Assembly (NCBI GenBank): GCA_027459705.1
Contig: DAIDHM010000201.1
Span: 1-64,000, forward strand
Reading direction: 5' to 3'
DNA length: 64,000 bases
DNA from: Ktedonobacteria bacterium
GTDB lineage: Bacteria; Chloroflexota; Ktedonobacteria; Ktedonobacterales; JACDGC01
The notes beneath the pieces were generated by a model. The model did not search any database, had not been told where the DNA came from, and worked only from the letters and a program-made list of their open reading frames with translations. This document shows, piece by piece, positions 1 through 9,000 of the stretch; position 1 is the stretch's first letter, and each line of letters starts with the position of its first letter. The position numbers and the translations under genes were made by a program.

Positions 1-291
1 GGCGCTGAGCAGTGGGGGAGCGGTGACGGCGAGCCAGCTCTTCGCCCCGTATGGCGCCACGCGCTACAGCAGCGGGGTGATGCCGACCAGCTATGGCTAC
101 ACCGGGCAACGGAGCGATCCCAGCGGGCTGGCGTATTTCCACGCGCGGTACTATGATCCCACGGTGGGGCAGTTCACCAGCGCCGACAGTGCGCAGGGGC
201 TGAACCGCTACAGCTATGTGCAGGGCAACCCGACGACGCTGACGGATCCGAGCGGGAATATGGCCTGCGCGGTGTATGCCGATGGGCTGTG
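1..291 (+). repeat. Direct repeat copy A (RHS core tip)
   Basis: Aligns without gaps to 1466-1756 (offset 1465) with only a handful of substitutions; similarity stops abruptly after GATGGxCTGTG. Confidence 0.9.
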
Positions 292-1018
292 TACCACACA
301 GCGGCGCACATCTCTCATTCCATTATCCTACACGACAACTGTAGCTGGGCAAAATAGCTCCAATGTAACGAACGCTCAAAATGCAAACTCAGCTACATCT
401 CCTGTGAAATCTAAATATTATACGCAAGATGGTCCCCGGATTCGTCTTTCAACAGATCCTAACAATGATTGTAATAAGCGTGGGACTGATTGCTATATTA
501 GCATACAGCGAGCTAGCGATCTCAAATCCTCAAACCAAGAAATTCGCCAACTTAAAAATGCAATTCTCTTTCTTACTGATGCCTATAATTTCGTGGCCGA
601 TCTTGGAGCATTACTTGTGGCATTTTTAACCAATGACGATCCAGCGATAGCGGCAAATGCGACGATGTTAGTTGGCGACATTGCCAATGTGCTAATCGAT
701 TTTGGCGAATCTCGTGGATGGGATCCACCTAAGTGGGTGCAGGATGCGCTCGATGCTTTTAGAATATCGCTTGGCGTACTGAAATGGGCACTTGGATTTG
801 GATTCATCGGAGATCTTCTTCAGCCAGAAGAAGGAGCTGTGCGAGACGTATCAACCATTGTGGCGAAATGGTTTATGAGTTTAATGCTCGGAAGTAGCGG
901 ATCGATAGATTTTCTGCAGTCCAAGTTATCGGCAGATCAAAAGCATGCAGCATGTGTGGCGGATACATCTGTTACGAATGCACAGTATGCAGCGGGAGCC
1001 TGCAACTACTTTCCTTAG
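2..1018 (+). CDS. RHS/YD-repeat protein, C-terminal part (5' truncated by window): conserved RHS core tip followed by a variable C-terminal tail (tail 1)
   Basis: ALSSGGAVTASQLFAPYGATRYSSG...YTGQRSDPSGLAYFHARYYDPTVGQFTSADSAQGLNRYSYVQGNPTTLTDPSGN is the RHS-repeat-associated core; frame is open to the window start (codon at 2). Tail after DPSGNMACAVYADGLC is unrelated and AT-rich. Confidence 0.88.
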   Translation, partial: ALSSGGAVTASQLFAPYGATRYSSGVMPTSYGYTGQRSDPSGLAYFHARYYDPTVGQFTSADSAQGLNRYSYVQGNPTTLTDPSGNMACAVYADGLCTTQRRTSLIPLSYTTTVAGQNSSNVTNAQNANSATSPVKSKYYTQDGPRIRLSTDPNNDCNKRGTDCYISIQRASDLKSSNQEIRQLKNAILFLTDAYNFVADLGALLVAFLTNDDPAIAANATMLVGDIANVLIDFGESRGWDPPKWVQDALDAFRISLGVLKWALGFGFIGDLLQPEEGAVRDVSTIVAKWFMSLMLGSSGSIDFLQSKLSADQKHAACVADTSVTNAQYAAGACNYFP

Positions 1019-1032
1019 AAAGGAAGGATGAG

Positions 1033-1386
1033 ATGTTACCTGATTATGTTATTAATATATTTGTCATATTGACCTCCCTAGGAGCGATTCTAGCAGCAAG
1101 TGCTATCTACCATAGTATCTGGAGAATGTATGAGTCATATGAGGAAGGAGAGCAAAAACATTCATTGTGGATGGGATTATGGGTAATGAGATTTATAGCT
1201 ATTGAATCGGTTGTGATATATGCAATGTTGATACTGTTATTAATAGTTTATCCCGACGGAAAGAATATGATGACTACGATTGTTTTAGCGTTACTTCCCA
1301 TTGTATTTACCATGATTTATGTGAATTCAGTGATATATTGGGCAGTGGTATTACGAGATATGCTGAAGCAGCGGGGACAAAGTTAA
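1033..1386 (+). CDS. Small multi-TM membrane protein; candidate immunity/partner for RHS tail 1
   Basis: ATG at 1033 behind AGGAAGG, 117 aa with about 3 hydrophobic segments; directly follows the RHS stop. Immunity role is inferred from position only. Confidence 0.55.
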   Translation: MLPDYVINIFVILTSLGAILAASAIYHSIWRMYESYEEGEQKHSLWMGLWVMRFIAIESVVIYAMLILLLIVYPDGKNMMTTIVLALLPIVFTMIYVNSVIYWAVVLRDMLKQRGQS

Positions 1387-2480
1387 TGGCATCGGTAAAT
1401 GAACCAGAGAACGTGGGCGGCACGTACAGCTACCTGGTGGCCGACGCGCAGGGCAGCGTGAACGTGGCGCTGAGCAGTGGGGGAGCGGTGACGGCGAGCC
1501 AGCTCTTCGCCCCGTATGGCGCCACGCGCTACAGCAGCGGGGTGATGCCGACCAGCTACGGCTACACCGGGCAACGGAGCGATCCCAGCGGGCTGGCGTA
1601 TTTCCACGCGCGGTACTATGATCCCACGGTGGGGCAGTTCATCAGCGCCGACAGCGCGCAAGGGCTGAACCGCTACGGCTATGTGCAGGGCAACCCGACG
1701 ACGCTGACGGATCCTAGTGGCAATATGGCCTGCGCGGTGTATGCCGATGGACTGTGCCAGCGCGGCCCGAAGGGGGCACCGCATCCGGCCCTGACGACGA
1801 CGGGGCATGAAGGTGCGAGTGGGCAGAGTGGTGCGAAGGGGGATGCGGTTGGGGCGCCTCAGGGAGGAATACCTCCCGCAAGCCCACACTTCTGCGATGC
1901 TTGCAGTGGCGCTACCTCTCAAACATGCGATAACGTATGTCATGCGCGAAATATTGTTGCGAAACTGTATAATGCTACCGTTTTTATTGAGTTAATTTTG
2001 GTATCTCTATTATCCTGGGGTTTTACAGATATTTTGAAGCTGCTAGAAGCTAAATTAAATGCAATTTCATTCTTCTTAAAAGTAATTGAGGCTCCAACTC
2101 TCATTGCAAAAGGCATAGTTGGAAGTTACTTGTTTATCAATGCGGTGCCATTAACAGGCCAAATATTCTTCTCAATGCAGACTCTTGCATATTTATTAAA
2201 TGGTGGTGAGTTTGATGTTGCACAAATTGAAAACGCAAAGACCCATATAGAGGCATCAAGCCTGATTGGAACGCTCGGTGCAACATTTATATGGGTAATC
2301 CAGTCCGTTGGGATACTAGGGGGGGCCTATGCAACTGCAGATGTAGGAGGAGCTGACATAGCAGTGAATGCGGAAGAATTAGTAACGCTAATTGATAGTG
2401 TAGCATTCACAATGAGTGTTGGCTATTTAGCTTATGCGGTGAACCAGCTAAATGAGGCTGAAAATTTATTACAAAAATAA
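1386..2480 (+). CDS. Orphan RHS core tip with a second variable, hydrophobic C-terminal tail (tail 2)
   Basis: GGTYSYLVADAQGSVNVALSSGGAVTASQLFAPYG...GLNRYGYVQGNPTTLTDPSGNMACAVYADGLC then a different hydrophobic tail. ATG at 1386 overlaps the previous TAA (TAATG); the track's start at 1338 (TTG) is an alternative. Confidence 0.75.
   Translation: MASVNEPENVGGTYSYLVADAQGSVNVALSSGGAVTASQLFAPYGATRYSSGVMPTSYGYTGQRSDPSGLAYFHARYYDPTVGQFISADSAQGLNRYGYVQGNPTTLTDPSGNMACAVYADGLCQRGPKGAPHPALTTTGHEGASGQSGAKGDAVGAPQGGIPPASPHFCDACSGATSQTCDNVCHARNIVAKLYNATVFIELILVSLLSWGFTDILKLLEAKLNAISFFLKVIEAPTLIAKGIVGSYLFINAVPLTGQIFFSMQTLAYLLNGGEFDVAQIENAKTHIEASSLIGTLGATFIWVIQSVGILGGAYATADVGGADIAVNAEELVTLIDSVAFTMSVGYLAYAVNQLNEAENLLQK
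1466..1756 (+). repeat. Direct repeat copy B (RHS core tip)
   Basis: Gapless near-identical copy of 1-291. Confidence 0.9.
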
Positions 2481-2542
2481 TCGAGGCAACAGTGCAGCAA
2501 GTATTGAGCAATCAAGAATTAGAATGAAAGGGTTGGTTTGTA

Positions 2543-3025
2543 ATGGCGATAATTGCGTTGCTGCGTCACTCCGATATTTTGGACCTTCAGAATTTTGTGC
2601 ATAAAAATACCCTCAATTTCAGTTTCTCTGCTGATATATTTGATTTCGTCATATTCGAACTGATGATACTGTTCTTAAGTGGCTTTAGTCTTGTGTTGCT
2701 CATCGATAAAATGAAATCACCTGTACCAAGAAAGCGACTAGAACAAATTAATAATATATGGTCTATAATAGACTATATTATCATAATAATAATAGGTTTT
2801 ATAACAATAATACTGCTATTATTTTTCACAAAATATTATGTTAAAGCTTTTGACAATTTTGTTCTGCAAAGCATTATTGGATGGGTCGTATGGATATATT
2901 TTATAGGAATTATCGTGATTAATGTCATCAAATGGTTTATGATAAAAAGGCGAGGGGCAACGGGTGCAGCAGAGCGTGACGAGCAATGGCATGACGACGA
3001 CGACCAGCTACATCGGCAACTATGA
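2543..3025 (+). CDS. Small multi-TM membrane protein; candidate immunity/partner for RHS tail 2
   Basis: Strongly hydrophobic AT-rich ORF after the second RHS tail; its C-terminus (RRGATGAAERDEQWHDDDDQLHRQL) reads out of frame through RHS-derived sequence. Confidence 0.5.
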   Translation: MAIIALLRHSDILDLQNFVHKNTLNFSFSADIFDFVIFELMILFLSGFSLVLLIDKMKSPVPRKRLEQINNIWSIIDYIIIIIIGFITIILLLFFTKYYVKAFDNFVLQSIIGWVVWIYFIGIIVINVIKWFMIKRRGATGAAERDEQWHDDDDQLHRQL

Positions 3026-3149
3026 AGAGGTGAGCGCGACGAGCGGGACGACGGTGGTGACGAAGTATTACCAGGCGGGACCGGCGATAGGGGCGTTATG
3101 CACCCCATATTCTCTGATGAGCATGCTCCCTCAACGGAATATGGTATGA
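2964..3149 (+). pseudogene. RHS-repeat remnant (third RHS fragment)
   Basis: QQSVTSNGMTTTTSYIGNYEEVSATSGTTVVTKYYQAG is typical sequence just upstream of an RHS core; similarity ends around position 3095. Confidence 0.6.
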
Positions 3150-3215
3150 TCTCCTGGAGCGACTGGTATCTGTAGCATACACCTCCCTGATTCCTCACCA
3201 GTCCAAGGATCGATT

Positions 3216-4049: not shown

Positions 4050-4864
4050 GCTCAACTGTTGCGCCGGGAAATCCGGTCGTACTGGCAGAACCAGCGCGCC
4101 GCGCCACGGTTGCCGTCATCCTCTGCGCGGGTCAGGGAACGCGGGTTGGCGCGGGTATGAACAAGATCCTGCTGCCCATACACGGCCAGCCGCTTTTGCT
4201 CTTTAGTCTGCAGGCACTGGCCGCCGCGCCTGAGATTGATGCAATCCTCCTGGTGGCGCATCCGCGCGAGGTGGCGACCATCCACGCACTGGTGCGCCAG
4301 CATCCCGCTGGCGCATCGGTCTGGGCGGTGATCCCGGGCGGAGATTCGCGCCATGCCTCCGAAGATGCGGCGCTCGCCTTTCTGCGGCCATCCGTGGTGA
4401 CGGGGGAGAACCGGGTCATCCTCATCCATGATGGGGCGCGGCCATTTGTCACGGTGGCCGACATTGCCGCGTTAGTCGCAGTTGCATCCCGGGGTGAAGG
4501 CGCCGTGCTGGCGTCCCCGGTCGCGTTGTCGGCAGGTATCGCCAGGATCACCGCAGATGGGCTGGCGCATGGGGTGGACGGAGTGGACGGTGTGTCGCGC
4601 ATCCTCTGGTGCGCCCAGACTCCCCAGGCGTTTCCGTCCGCGCCGCTGTTATCGGCCTATGACGCGGCGCGGGCAGCGAGGCGTGAAGGGACAGATACGG
4701 CTATGACATTCGCCCAATCTGACTTGCCTATCAGGGTGGTCGCTGCGCAAGGACCAAACTTCAAACTTACCACACCCGAAGATATCCAGCTAGCTGAATA
4801 TCTCGCGGATCACGCGCGTCCTGACGAGACAGGATCAACAGATCACCCGGCAGCGCTTGAGTGA
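4046..4864 (+). CDS. ispD: 2-C-methyl-D-erythritol 4-phosphate cytidylyltransferase
   Basis: VAVILCAGQGTRVGAGMNKILLPIHGQPLL, HDGARPFV, QTPQAF, TTPEDIQLAEYL. Confidence 0.92.
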   Translation: MSSTVAPGNPVVLAEPARRATVAVILCAGQGTRVGAGMNKILLPIHGQPLLLFSLQALAAAPEIDAILLVAHPREVATIHALVRQHPAGASVWAVIPGGDSRHASEDAALAFLRPSVVTGENRVILIHDGARPFVTVADIAALVAVASRGEGAVLASPVALSAGIARITADGLAHGVDGVDGVSRILWCAQTPQAFPSAPLLSAYDAARAARREGTDTAMTFAQSDLPIRVVAAQGPNFKLTTPEDIQLAEYLADHARPDETGSTDHPAALE

Positions 4865-4879
4865 GTTCAGGACGGTTGA

Positions 4880-5962
4880 TCACGGCGCGGAGCGCGCGGT
4901 GAGCGCCAGGCCGGGCATGCGCTTGGCTGGCACAATTCCTCGATCCGCGAACCAGCGTGCGGCATCAGCCAACGAGGTTGCCAGGGATCGATATGTCAGG
5001 TTCCATTCGCGTCGCGCCTTGCTATCATCGTACCACCAAGTATGCGCCAACAGTTCCGCAACCCCTGAATCGAGCAGGGGCTGTGCGGTGACGCGCTCCA
5101 GGACTGAACCTGCCAGGCGCAATGGCCCTAATGGCAAGCGCCAGCGCGGTGGTTGCCGACCTGCGATCTCCGCCAGCTGGCCGAAGACCTCCTGGAAGGT
5201 GACATTGTGGCCCGTCACCAGATAGCGTTCCCCCGTCCTGCCCTGCGCCAACGCGCGTACGTGCGCGATGGCGGCATCGCGCACATCGACCTGACAGAGA
5301 CCACCTGGGAGGTAGCCGGGGATTTGACCGCGCAGGTAAGCGATAATCATCCGCGAGGAGGTGAGATAGTGGTCTCCAGGTCCGACACAGAAGCCGGGAT
5401 AGACCATGACGAGATCCAGTCCGCGGTCCAGGTATTGCGGAATCGTCGCTTCAGCGCGGCGCTTGGATCGCACGTAGGGCGAGCGGAAGTGGTCGAGGAC
5501 AGCGCGTTGCTGGTAGGCCGCCACTTCATCCAGCGGCGGCTTTGTGGGATCCCCGATGCCCAGCGCGAAGATCGACGCGGTATAGACGACCCGGCGCACG
5601 CGGTGCCGGAGCGCCGCCTCGAAGATATTGATCGTCCCACCATAGTTGACGGCATCACAGATGGCCGCGTCCTGAGGTCGCGTGGCGATGCGCCCCGCGA
5701 CATGGATGATCGTGTCGCAATCCGCGACTGCCCGATCGATCGTAGCAGGATCTGTCACATCGCCGGTGACCCAACTCACGGGCAATCGCGCCAGCTCGGG
5801 GTCCGATGGCGTCCCTTCGCCGCGCCAGAGCGCGCGGATTGCACCAGGGTCCTGGTCGGTTTCGCGGTGCGCGACCAGGGCGCGCAATACGGCCGTGCCA
5901 ATGAAGCCAGTTCCCCCCGTCACCAGTGTCACCATCGTCGTCCCCCACATGTTTTTGCTCAT
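4880..5962 (-). CDS. NAD-dependent epimerase/dehydratase (dihydroflavonol reductase / HpnA-like)
   Basis: VTLVTGGTGFIGTAVLRAL Rossmann motif, YVRSKRRAE catalytic Y-x3-K; start may be 5932. Confidence 0.85.
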   Translation of the reverse strand: MSKNMWGTTMVTLVTGGTGFIGTAVLRALVAHRETDQDPGAIRALWRGEGTPSDPELARLPVSWVTGDVTDPATIDRAVADCDTIIHVAGRIATRPQDAAICDAVNYGGTINIFEAALRHRVRRVVYTASIFALGIGDPTKPPLDEVAAYQQRAVLDHFRSPYVRSKRRAEATIPQYLDRGLDLVMVYPGFCVGPGDHYLTSSRMIIAYLRGQIPGYLPGGLCQVDVRDAAIAHVRALAQGRTGERYLVTGHNVTFQEVFGQLAEIAGRQPPRWRLPLGPLRLAGSVLERVTAQPLLDSGVAELLAHTWWYDDSKARREWNLTYRSLATSLADAARWFADRGIVPAKRMPGLALTARSAP

Positions 5963-6028
5963 TCCAACGCCAGTCTATACGAGGTGAGAGGGTGGCGAAC
6001 CAGGGAAATGTTTCATGCTCGGCGCCAA

Positions 6029-9000
6029 TCATGCCACCGCGCCAAGATCATCGTCGCGCTGCGCAGCCAGGACATCCAGTCCCAGTGACGCGATCAAGGC
6101 TTCGACGAGCGTGGAATCAAATCGGCCAGCCACCACTTCGGCACGCAAGAAGCAAACCCCTTCATACAACGAGCGACCGGAGTGATAGGGTCTTTCGGCC
6201 GTATACGCCTCGAAAGCGTCTGCGACACTGAGGATTCGCACGATGAGGGGAATCTGTGTGGCTCTCAGGCCATCGGGATACCCCGAACCATCGAGACGCT
6301 CATGATGCCACCGCGCGATTGGAACGCAATCCGCAAACGCCGTAGCATGGCTGAGCATTTCCGCGCCGATGGTGGTATGCGCGCGGATTTTCTGCCATTC
6401 TTCGGCATCGAGTGGACCGCGTTTATTGAGGATAGTGTCAGGAAGGCCGATCTTGCCAATATCGTGCACCAGTCCCCCTCGATGGGCCAGTTCTGATAGC
6501 TCTTCCAGACCCAGTTGATGCGTCATTGCGACCGCGTATCGGGCGACGCCAGCGGAATGAGCGGCGGTGAAACTGTCGCGGAGATCGATCGCGTTGATGA
6601 TCGCCTGGGCCATCTCCAGATTGGCGTGCATCGGCAACGCCTCGAAAGCTTCCGTCGCGCCGGTGCCCTGGCGGATCAGTTCCAGCGAATACCCCTCCAC
6701 ACGGTTGCGGCCCCGATGTTTGGCGGCATAGAGCGCCAGGTCTGCGGCCTTCAGCAGAGAACCAGGGACGGATGCTTGTGTGGGGAAAGTCGCGAAGCCG
6801 AGAGAGGCGGTCACTGGCACCAGACTACCAGAAGACACGCGCGTGTCATGGTTTTGCGGACTGGCAGATGACTGATCGCTATCGACGATATCGGACCTTC
6901 CCGGTTGGGCGTTCAGGCGGATGCTGGCAATCTGTTGACGGACGCGTTCCGCGATGTGCCCGGCCTCATCATAGCTGGTCTCGGGTAAGACTATCGTAAA
7001 CTCTTCGCCGCCATAGCGCGCCGGGTAATCGCGGCGGCGCACTGCCTGACGAATCGCTTCGGCCACCGCGCTCAGTGCCAGATCTCCGACATCATGGCCA
7101 TAGGTCTCATTGAAGCGGCGAAAATGGTCGACATCCAGCATGATCACCGAGACCGGCAGACCGGCGGCGGCCGCGCTCATAATCTCTTGTCGCAAGGTTT
7201 GTTGCAGGGCACGGTGGTTGAAGAGGCCCGTCAACGGATCGACCTGCGCTAACTGTTGCGCCTCATGATAGAGCGATGCGCGATGGAGCGCCGTGGCGAT
7301 CTCGTCGGCCGCGGCCAATAGCATCTCCTGTTCGGGCAGATCCCACCGCATGGGGCTGTCGGCGCGGAAGGCTGCCATGAGCGCACCAAACACCTTGCCA
7401 TCCACCCGCAATGGCACGCATGCCAGTTGTCCCATGGGGAGAGTAATGGGCATCTGCGTTTCAATGTCGAAGAGATCGATCGCTGATACATTGAAGTGAG
7501 GCACGCCCTGTGCCAAAACCTGCAGCATATGAAAGCGCGCGTCCTCAGCGATCGGTGAGGTGGTCAATGCGTTAGCCAACAGGCTCGCCTGTGCTGCGGA
7601 GATTGCGTCGCATAAATGGAGATGAAGGACCCGTGCATAATCGGGTCGGTCATGGTCGCGCAAGATGAGGCCACAATTTGTCACGCCGATATCCGTCGTC
7701 AAGATATCCAAAGCTTCGCGCGCAATGGTCGTCTCATCCAAGGCCTTCGAGCACTGCTGCGCGAGCAAGCGGAGGATGCGATTTTGACGTGATGCGCGAA
7801 ACTCCGCGGTCATGTCGCGGTTGATGCCCAGCACTCCATGGAAGGTGCCATCAGCCAATCGCAGTGGGACGGCCTGCAAGGTGACATAGCCTGACGACCC
7901 ATCTTCAGAAAGGGTGCGCACGGTGAGCGGCGGTTCGATTTCCCCAGTGCGGAGGAGGCGCACAACGGGAAAATCGTCGAGTTGCAACGGCTGGCCATCC
8001 AGAAGATAGCACCCACTGAGTACCGCCGAGCTGTCCTGTGTACGCATCGTCTGCGTGTGGTGCAGCGCAATCGCGGGCACCGCGAACCCGGCTTGATTTT
8101 TTTCATTGCGGTGGCGTTCCTGTCCCTGCGCGTCATACATCACCAGACCATCTTGCACTGACTCAAAGACGGTCTGAAACTCCAGTCGCAGGCGATCACT
8201 TTCCCGTAGCGCCAGGGCAAGGTCGCGCTCCATCGTGACGCGTTGGCTGACATCGCGACCGATGGCGATGAACAACTGGGTCGCGGGGATCCAGGTGATG
8301 AGTGTTTCCAGGATAATGTTGACCCCATAACGATCAACCAGTTCCGTCTCAAACGCGCTATGACCGTGCACATGAGCCTCGCGGCGCATGCGAAGGATCA
8401 TCCGCAAACCATCGCGTTGCCGCGGAAACAAGAATATAGGGAGCTTGCCAATCAGTTCTTCGCGCGCATAACCAAAGAGCGCTTGCATTGCCGCGTTGCA
8501 ACGAACAATCATTCCTGCTTCATTCAGCACCAGTACGATGTCTGGCCGGATTGATTCCAGCAACGAGTCCAGAAAATCCCGTTCGATGCGGACTTGTTCC
8601 AGTGCATCGTGCTGGGCGCGGTTCGCCGCTTCCAGCGCCTCGCGCTTGGTGAACACTTCATCCAGCAGGTTGTTCATCTCCTGCCCGATTTGGTGAAATT
8701 CAGTTGACCGATCCAGTGTGCTCAAGAACTGCCGGATGGTCATCGCACTGATGGTCACAAACAACGCGATGAGGAAGATCCAGAGCGACTGTGTCAAAGC
8801 CATAACTGGTCGTTGAGTCTGGACGAAATGGGGGATGCCGATGAGGAGATCCCCAGCGGCAAAAAGCCAGACAGCCCGGATCGAAAGCAAGGACGAAGCA
8901 GTTGCCGCAACGATCAGAAAGCGAAGGAGGTCCCCATTCTGCGCACTGCTCGGCCCAGGTTGGAGGACGAGCGCGAGGTGCACCACATTGAGGGAACCGA

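Follow-up and report, generated by a model that had tools for sequence, protein, structure and literature searches.

Rhs proteins, among them Tse5, cleave off their C-terminal tails at an aspartate pair in the core, and Tse5 makes pores (PMC10684867). In Salmonella, an orphan tail becomes active once it has recombined with the main gene (PMC3967940). CDI ionophores are helical toxins paired with small hydrophobic immunity proteins (PMC11630599), and the general combination of a hydrophobic helical ionophore or pore toxin with a small membrane immunity protein has been described for both CDI and Rhs systems (PMC11630599, PMC10684867).

The locus described here opens a 64,000-nucleotide stretch of DNA (the window), bases 1-64000 of contig C96. 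The genome (4.6 Mb, 245 contigs, 95% complete) has its class-level relatives in the Ktedonobacteria, namely Dictyobacter and Ktedonobacterales MAGs. The contig opens with part of a polymorphic Rhs toxin array, namely its 3′ end, in Ktedonobacteria (Chloroflexota). It resembles the orphan rhs-CT/rhsI modules of enterobacteria such as Salmonella LT2 (PMC3967940, PMC3150448) in its displaced tip-and-tail fragments, their linkage to immunity genes, putative here, and a shared core that would allow recombination. It differs from the LT2 locus in its ktedonobacterial host, its membrane-type tails, the far longer arrays of its relatives and a main gene that was not found. The layout of an orphan-cassette array is already known, and it is the toxin families that are without description in the libraries searched.

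Repeated core tips and their linker

All features of the array lie on the forward strand. Rhs-associated core tip 1 (2-259) matches TIGR03696 (Rhs_assc_core) with 71.3 bits against a cut-off of 32.5, and copies of its protein elsewhere in the genome are 94-98% identical. Its 5′ side is cut by the contig end; because the window begins at contig base 1, this is an assembly break in repeated DNA and not biology. Tip 2 (1407-1724) is supported by alignment and scores 71 bits on the same model. A core remnant with neither tip nor tail after it closes the array and is 94-97% identical to copies on contigs C47 and C245. A preliminary description of this DNA had placed the remnant at 2964-3095; core DNA is indeed present there, but it begins at 2945, matches other copies in the genome as far as 3087 and extends to 3093, and is slightly longer. 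The same description reported near-identical core tips at 1-291 and 1466-1756 leading into unrelated AT-rich tails, and both points hold: 282 of 291 bases are identical, the two copies end in the same peptide, DPSGNMACAVYADGLC, and beyond this shared end no similarity is left, the frames diverge completely and GC content drops below that of the core.

Both tips run into a short post-core linker, MACAVYADGLC, with a Cys pair around DG (260-292 after tip 1, and opening the segment 1725-1803 after tip 2). The linker is identical in the two and near identical in CT3 and CT4, tails found elsewhere in the genome. After tip 2 it continues into an extension that recurs unchanged in CT4 on C245; CT2 and CT4 have 27 identical residues after the core, counted from N of DPSGN. 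The aspartate pair of the core motif (D82, D102) is invariant in seven copies; relative to a DPxGx18DPxG-like motif, the first DPxG reads DSAQG and the spacing is 20, and autoproteolysis is predicted only. Between the cassettes, an ATG (1386-1406) overlaps the stop codon of the preceding membrane ORF as TAATG and is in frame with tip 2, making a translational restart into this tip possible. Core sequence restarts just after a membrane ORF at the same motif, GGCGAxGGGCAxCGGGTGCAG, at 2945 in the window, 1343 on C245 and 6896 on C47.

The near-identical tip recurs four more times in the genome, three times on C245 and once on C47 (core DNA 94-97% identical), and all six tips score 68-74 bits on TIGR03696 (cut-off 32.5). 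The six tips lead into six different, intact tails, each with a membrane-protein ORF behind it. The four tails outside the window (CT3, CT4, CT5 and CT6) are all hydrophobic or glycine-rich, and the tails are mostly unrelated to one another; CT5 and CT6 have a glycine-rich stretch in common. CT3 is followed by an ORF with two TM segments, CT4 by a 63-residue ORF with two TM segments that overlaps the CT4 stop, CT5 by a protein with two TM segments and a C-terminal domain weakly like STM3941, and CT6 by an ORF with three. Membrane ORFs also occur as orphans that have no tail, on C47 (kin to IM2, the second membrane ORF of the window, E=3e-21) and on C232 (kin to IM5, E=1e-29). At 112-2117 of C232, a 49-base rhs remnant is accompanied by three membrane ORFs and no tail; one of these ORFs is 43% identical to the CT5 partner, and the stretch resembles a reservoir of orphan immunity genes.

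Other rhs-related loci are of different make. Contig C169 (38000-47444) carries at about 4300-8332 a second cassette type, in which successive partial PT-HINT domains (MAAQTLRVGEQVVRGDG...) are joined to different toxins; one of these matches a Tse2-like ADP-ribosyltransferase family (E=4e-9), and the array continues until it meets rhs core where the contig ends. C146 (1-3315) and C231 (4658-5164) bear another rhs tip family (GMTLYTPYGASQYQAPG), with related soluble tails and soluble neighbours; these tails (DIILW...WDVKPISY) are nuclease-like by eye and match nothing in Pfam. On C171 (1-1068) the reading frame of a core fragment leads on into a protein with TPR-like repeats, which may reflect a rearrangement that fused the two or an assembly error. 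The arrays of this genome break off at contig ends, and C47 and C169, which both terminate in rhs core, could join onto C96 or C245.

Variable tails and adjoining membrane ORFs

The first tail, CT1, is an open frame at 293-1018 with a helical hydrophobic domain at 497-1015, and the second, CT2, is an open frame at 1804-2480 with such a domain at 1905-2477. Their stop codons lie at 1018 and 2480, and none of 20,000 base shuffles kept the frame open, for CT1 and CT2 alike. GC content of tail and adjoining ORF is 0.45 and 0.36 in the first pair and 0.39 and 0.31 in the second, against 0.67 in the cores and 0.58 in the rest of the window. The hydropathy of CT1 is moderate, with two segments near 1.55. 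AlphaFold models of CT1 (from a five-sequence alignment) and CT2 (from a single sequence) are helical and of low confidence, with pLDDT values of 48 and 43, too uncertain for comparison with the five-helix bundle that CDI ionophores form.

Behind each tail lies a small multi-TM ORF, as first described; each of the two (1033-1386 and 2543-3025) has three TM-like segments. IM1 (117 residues), identified as a putative immunity protein by its hydropathy, begins 14 bases past the CT1 stop and has AGGAAGG upstream of its ATG. IM2 (160 residues), likewise putative, is 35% identical (E=3e-21) to the orphan ORF on C47. Only about 2543-2944 of IM2 is native, the remainder being out-of-frame core: its C-terminal ~27 residues show an 81% match to the out-of-frame core of another ORF, and since these last residues are core DNA read out of frame, the native stop of IM2 was lost at the junction. 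A Pfam match of IM2 to TMEM70 (19.5 bits, below the 22-bit cut-off) was set aside as driven by composition. The partners in these cassettes are small and very hydrophobic, with three TM segments in IM1 and IM2 and two in the partner of CT4 (IM4), and they probably protect the producer as immunity proteins.

The tails score above cut-off against no family in Pfam, NCBIfam or PADLOC, a PDB sequence search gave no match for CT1 and CT2, and no known ionophore or pore family was matched by the tails in the Pfam, NCBIfam and PDB searches. The suggestion that the tails are undescribed effector types is borne out to this extent; it must be narrowed in that CT1 belongs to a wider Ktedonobacteria Rhs-CT family and that the general kind is known for CDI and Rhs. 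Since databases assign no designation to the CDI ionophore itself (PMC11630599), a family search that comes up empty argues only weakly for a new type of effector. Searches of the class with single sequences returned no relatives of CT1 and, for CT2, solely the linker shared with CT4, and across 400 Chloroflexota genomes no credible relative of CT2 turned up. A phylum-wide match of CT2 in one genome (G031, E=0.006) is to a multi-TM protein that has no Rhs core and adjoins a cytochrome P450-like frame, and was rejected. Searching plasmids by tblastn gave no match for CT1 and, for CT2, one match to a haloarchaeal plasmid (24%, E=0.01) that was not taken as real.

The CT1 family and the arrays of Dictyobacter

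Judged by sequence profiles, CT1 falls into an Rhs-CT family whose other members were seen in Dictyobacter alone. Built from four Dictyobacter tails, a profile selects CT1 among 8,728 ORFs (E about 4e-5); the profile-to-sequence score is 38.7, and the best of 100 shuffled versions reaches 19.7. With a five-member profile built from Dictyobacter only, CT1 is the sole match in the whole genome (E=2e-6), and a profile that includes CT1 finds strong matches among 400 Chloroflexota genomes in this genome and two Dictyobacter species only. The first iterative search, seeded with CT1, missed the Dictyobacter family, and the kinship was recovered by the reverse search from Dictyobacter. CT3 has Dictyobacter relatives too. 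Members of the CT1 family sit behind Rhs tips or tip linkers, and all six have an ORF with two to four TM segments within 400 bases downstream. These membrane ORFs show no detectable kinship among themselves, and IM1 has no significant kin there; because the partners are not detectably related, cognate pairing in the family rests on position. CT1 represents at least one new family of putative toxins, whose members are accompanied by unrelated membrane proteins.

The tip is present in 33 of 47 genomes of the class. Dictyobacter kobayashii (G024) has one full-length rhs frame of 2,316 codons with a signal-peptide-like N-terminus; behind it, in the same orientation, about 75 kb carry at least 13 more tips, and the genome has 24 core matches. 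Frameshifts or stop codons interrupt the tails of several cassettes in this array, whereas their core and linker are still near identical, so that intact tails stand beside decaying ones. The earlier proposal of a polymorphic-toxin cassette array in a Chloroflexota genome is supported by the additional cassettes on C245 and C47 and by such long arrays behind the full-length rhs genes of relatives. That proposal also included a main gene beside the orphan modules. The orphan cassettes are present, but queries with the N-terminal regions of two relatives' genes found no full-length rhs gene in this genome, whose arrays are interrupted by contig ends, and on that account the main-gene part of the model is unproven here.

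Many tips carry a Cys pair around D(G) just after the core, in forms such as MACAVYADGLC, HGRCNTDGDC and FGMCNGMATDDGIC. Among 49 tips, the next ORF has at least two TM segments in 11 of 21 linker-bearing cases and in 3 of 28 others (Fisher p=0.003), and the tail is hydrophobic in 17 of 21 and 9 of 28, respectively (p=0.001), though the rule had been derived from these very tips, many of them paralogues, and both values are therefore optimistic. Some linker-bearing tails are of HINT or soluble types. The association of the Cys linker with membrane-type tails is a lead.

Proposed mode of action and its alternatives

The tails of this polymorphic Rhs array are probably toxins of the ionophore or pore type, countered by immunity proteins in the membrane, and would act in the manner of CDI ionophores or Tse5. 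This is the best reading of the locus given the core domain with its aspartate pair, the likeness of the cassettes to CDI ionophores, the pores made by Tse5 and the recombination known from Salmonella. CDI ionophores of the CdiA-CT EC93 type, with their hydrophobic CdiI (PMC11630599), are likewise helical and very diverse C-terminal toxins beside small hydrophobic immunity proteins, and the immunity candidate IM4, with 63 residues and two TM segments, is near the reported size of two-helix CdiI proteins (72-100 residues; PMC11630599). In contrast to these, the tails described here are carried by Rhs and not by CdiA, and both IM1 and IM2 exceed that size and have three TM segments. Tse5, an Rhs pore-forming T6SS effector (PMC9637101, PMC10684867), shares the Rhs shell, a C-terminal tail, putatively of pore type here, and an aspartate-pair motif, here a predicted site of release. 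It differs in that the full-length proteins of the relatives open with a signal-peptide-like segment, the spacing of the aspartate pair is slightly different and the tail sequences do not match. Likeness to CDI ionophores and Tse5 is meant as similar working and not as membership, as CT1 and CT2 were compared by PDB sequence search with no match. A further parallel is EsxX, a glycine-zipper, membrane-depolarising T7SS toxin (PMC12744356) whose hydrophobic, glycine-rich C-terminus recalls CT5 and CT6 and which also has immunity proteins; EsxX, however, is an LXG/T7SS substrate, and the match of CT6 to a Gly-zipper lies below the curated cut-off.

The hydrophobic tails of a polymorphic Rhs array might instead serve mainly for entry, or be toxins against something else, such as lipids or a membrane enzyme, and not ionophores or pores. 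Soluble-type toxins do occur in the same genome, as in the PT-HINT/Tse2-like ADP-ribosyltransferase cassette on C169, and the tails match no ionophore or pore family. Yet all six tails are hydrophobic or glycine-rich with membrane-protein neighbours, and almost wholly transmembrane immunity proteins would not be needed against soluble toxins, and this account is considered unlikely. The locus could also have arisen by decay of an rhs gene, in which case the tails would be random or without function and the small ORFs unrelated genes. Remnants such as 2945-3093 and C245 4710-4822 would fit decay, as would the truncation of tip 1 by the contig end, the failure to find a full-length rhs and the broken tails in several Dictyobacter cassettes. 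Decay is nonetheless highly improbable: CT1 and CT2 keep frames that survived in no shuffle, CT1 retains family residues in common with Dictyobacter tails, and every one of the six tails in the genome is intact and paired with a membrane ORF. Least probable of all is that the tails anchor Rhs/YD proteins at the surface or in the membrane and are not toxins. Hydrophobic C-termini are able to anchor proteins, and the toxicity of these tails is inferred, but neither complete variation behind a near-identical core nor an unrelated small membrane protein for every tail would be expected of anchors.

For an array of ionophore- or pore-type toxins, the near-identical core tips would act as recombination handles ahead of interchangeable tail and immunity pairs. 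Export of a full-length Rhs protein would be followed by cleavage through its own core at the conserved aspartate pair and DPSG, after which the freed tail would enter a neighbouring cell, where its helical hydrophobic domain may insert in the target membrane. The multi-TM protein encoded downstream would be the cognate immunity protein in the membrane of the producer, and the orphan and truncated cassettes of the window would come into use in this strain by recombining into a main rhs gene. A more tentative proposal, in itself rather doubtful, is that Ktedonobacteria possess a lineage-specific repertoire of Rhs-delivered ionophore families, in which the Cys-x(n)-D(G)-x-Cys linker right past the cleavage site is an entry or receptor module for tails that act on membranes and the full-length Rhs protein is exported by a Sec-type signal.

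These cassettes extend orphan-cassette Rhs competition systems to soil-type Chloroflexota, whose members related to this organism keep very large libraries of tails. The CT1 family, in turn, allows one to test how a single toxin scaffold gains new immunity partners.
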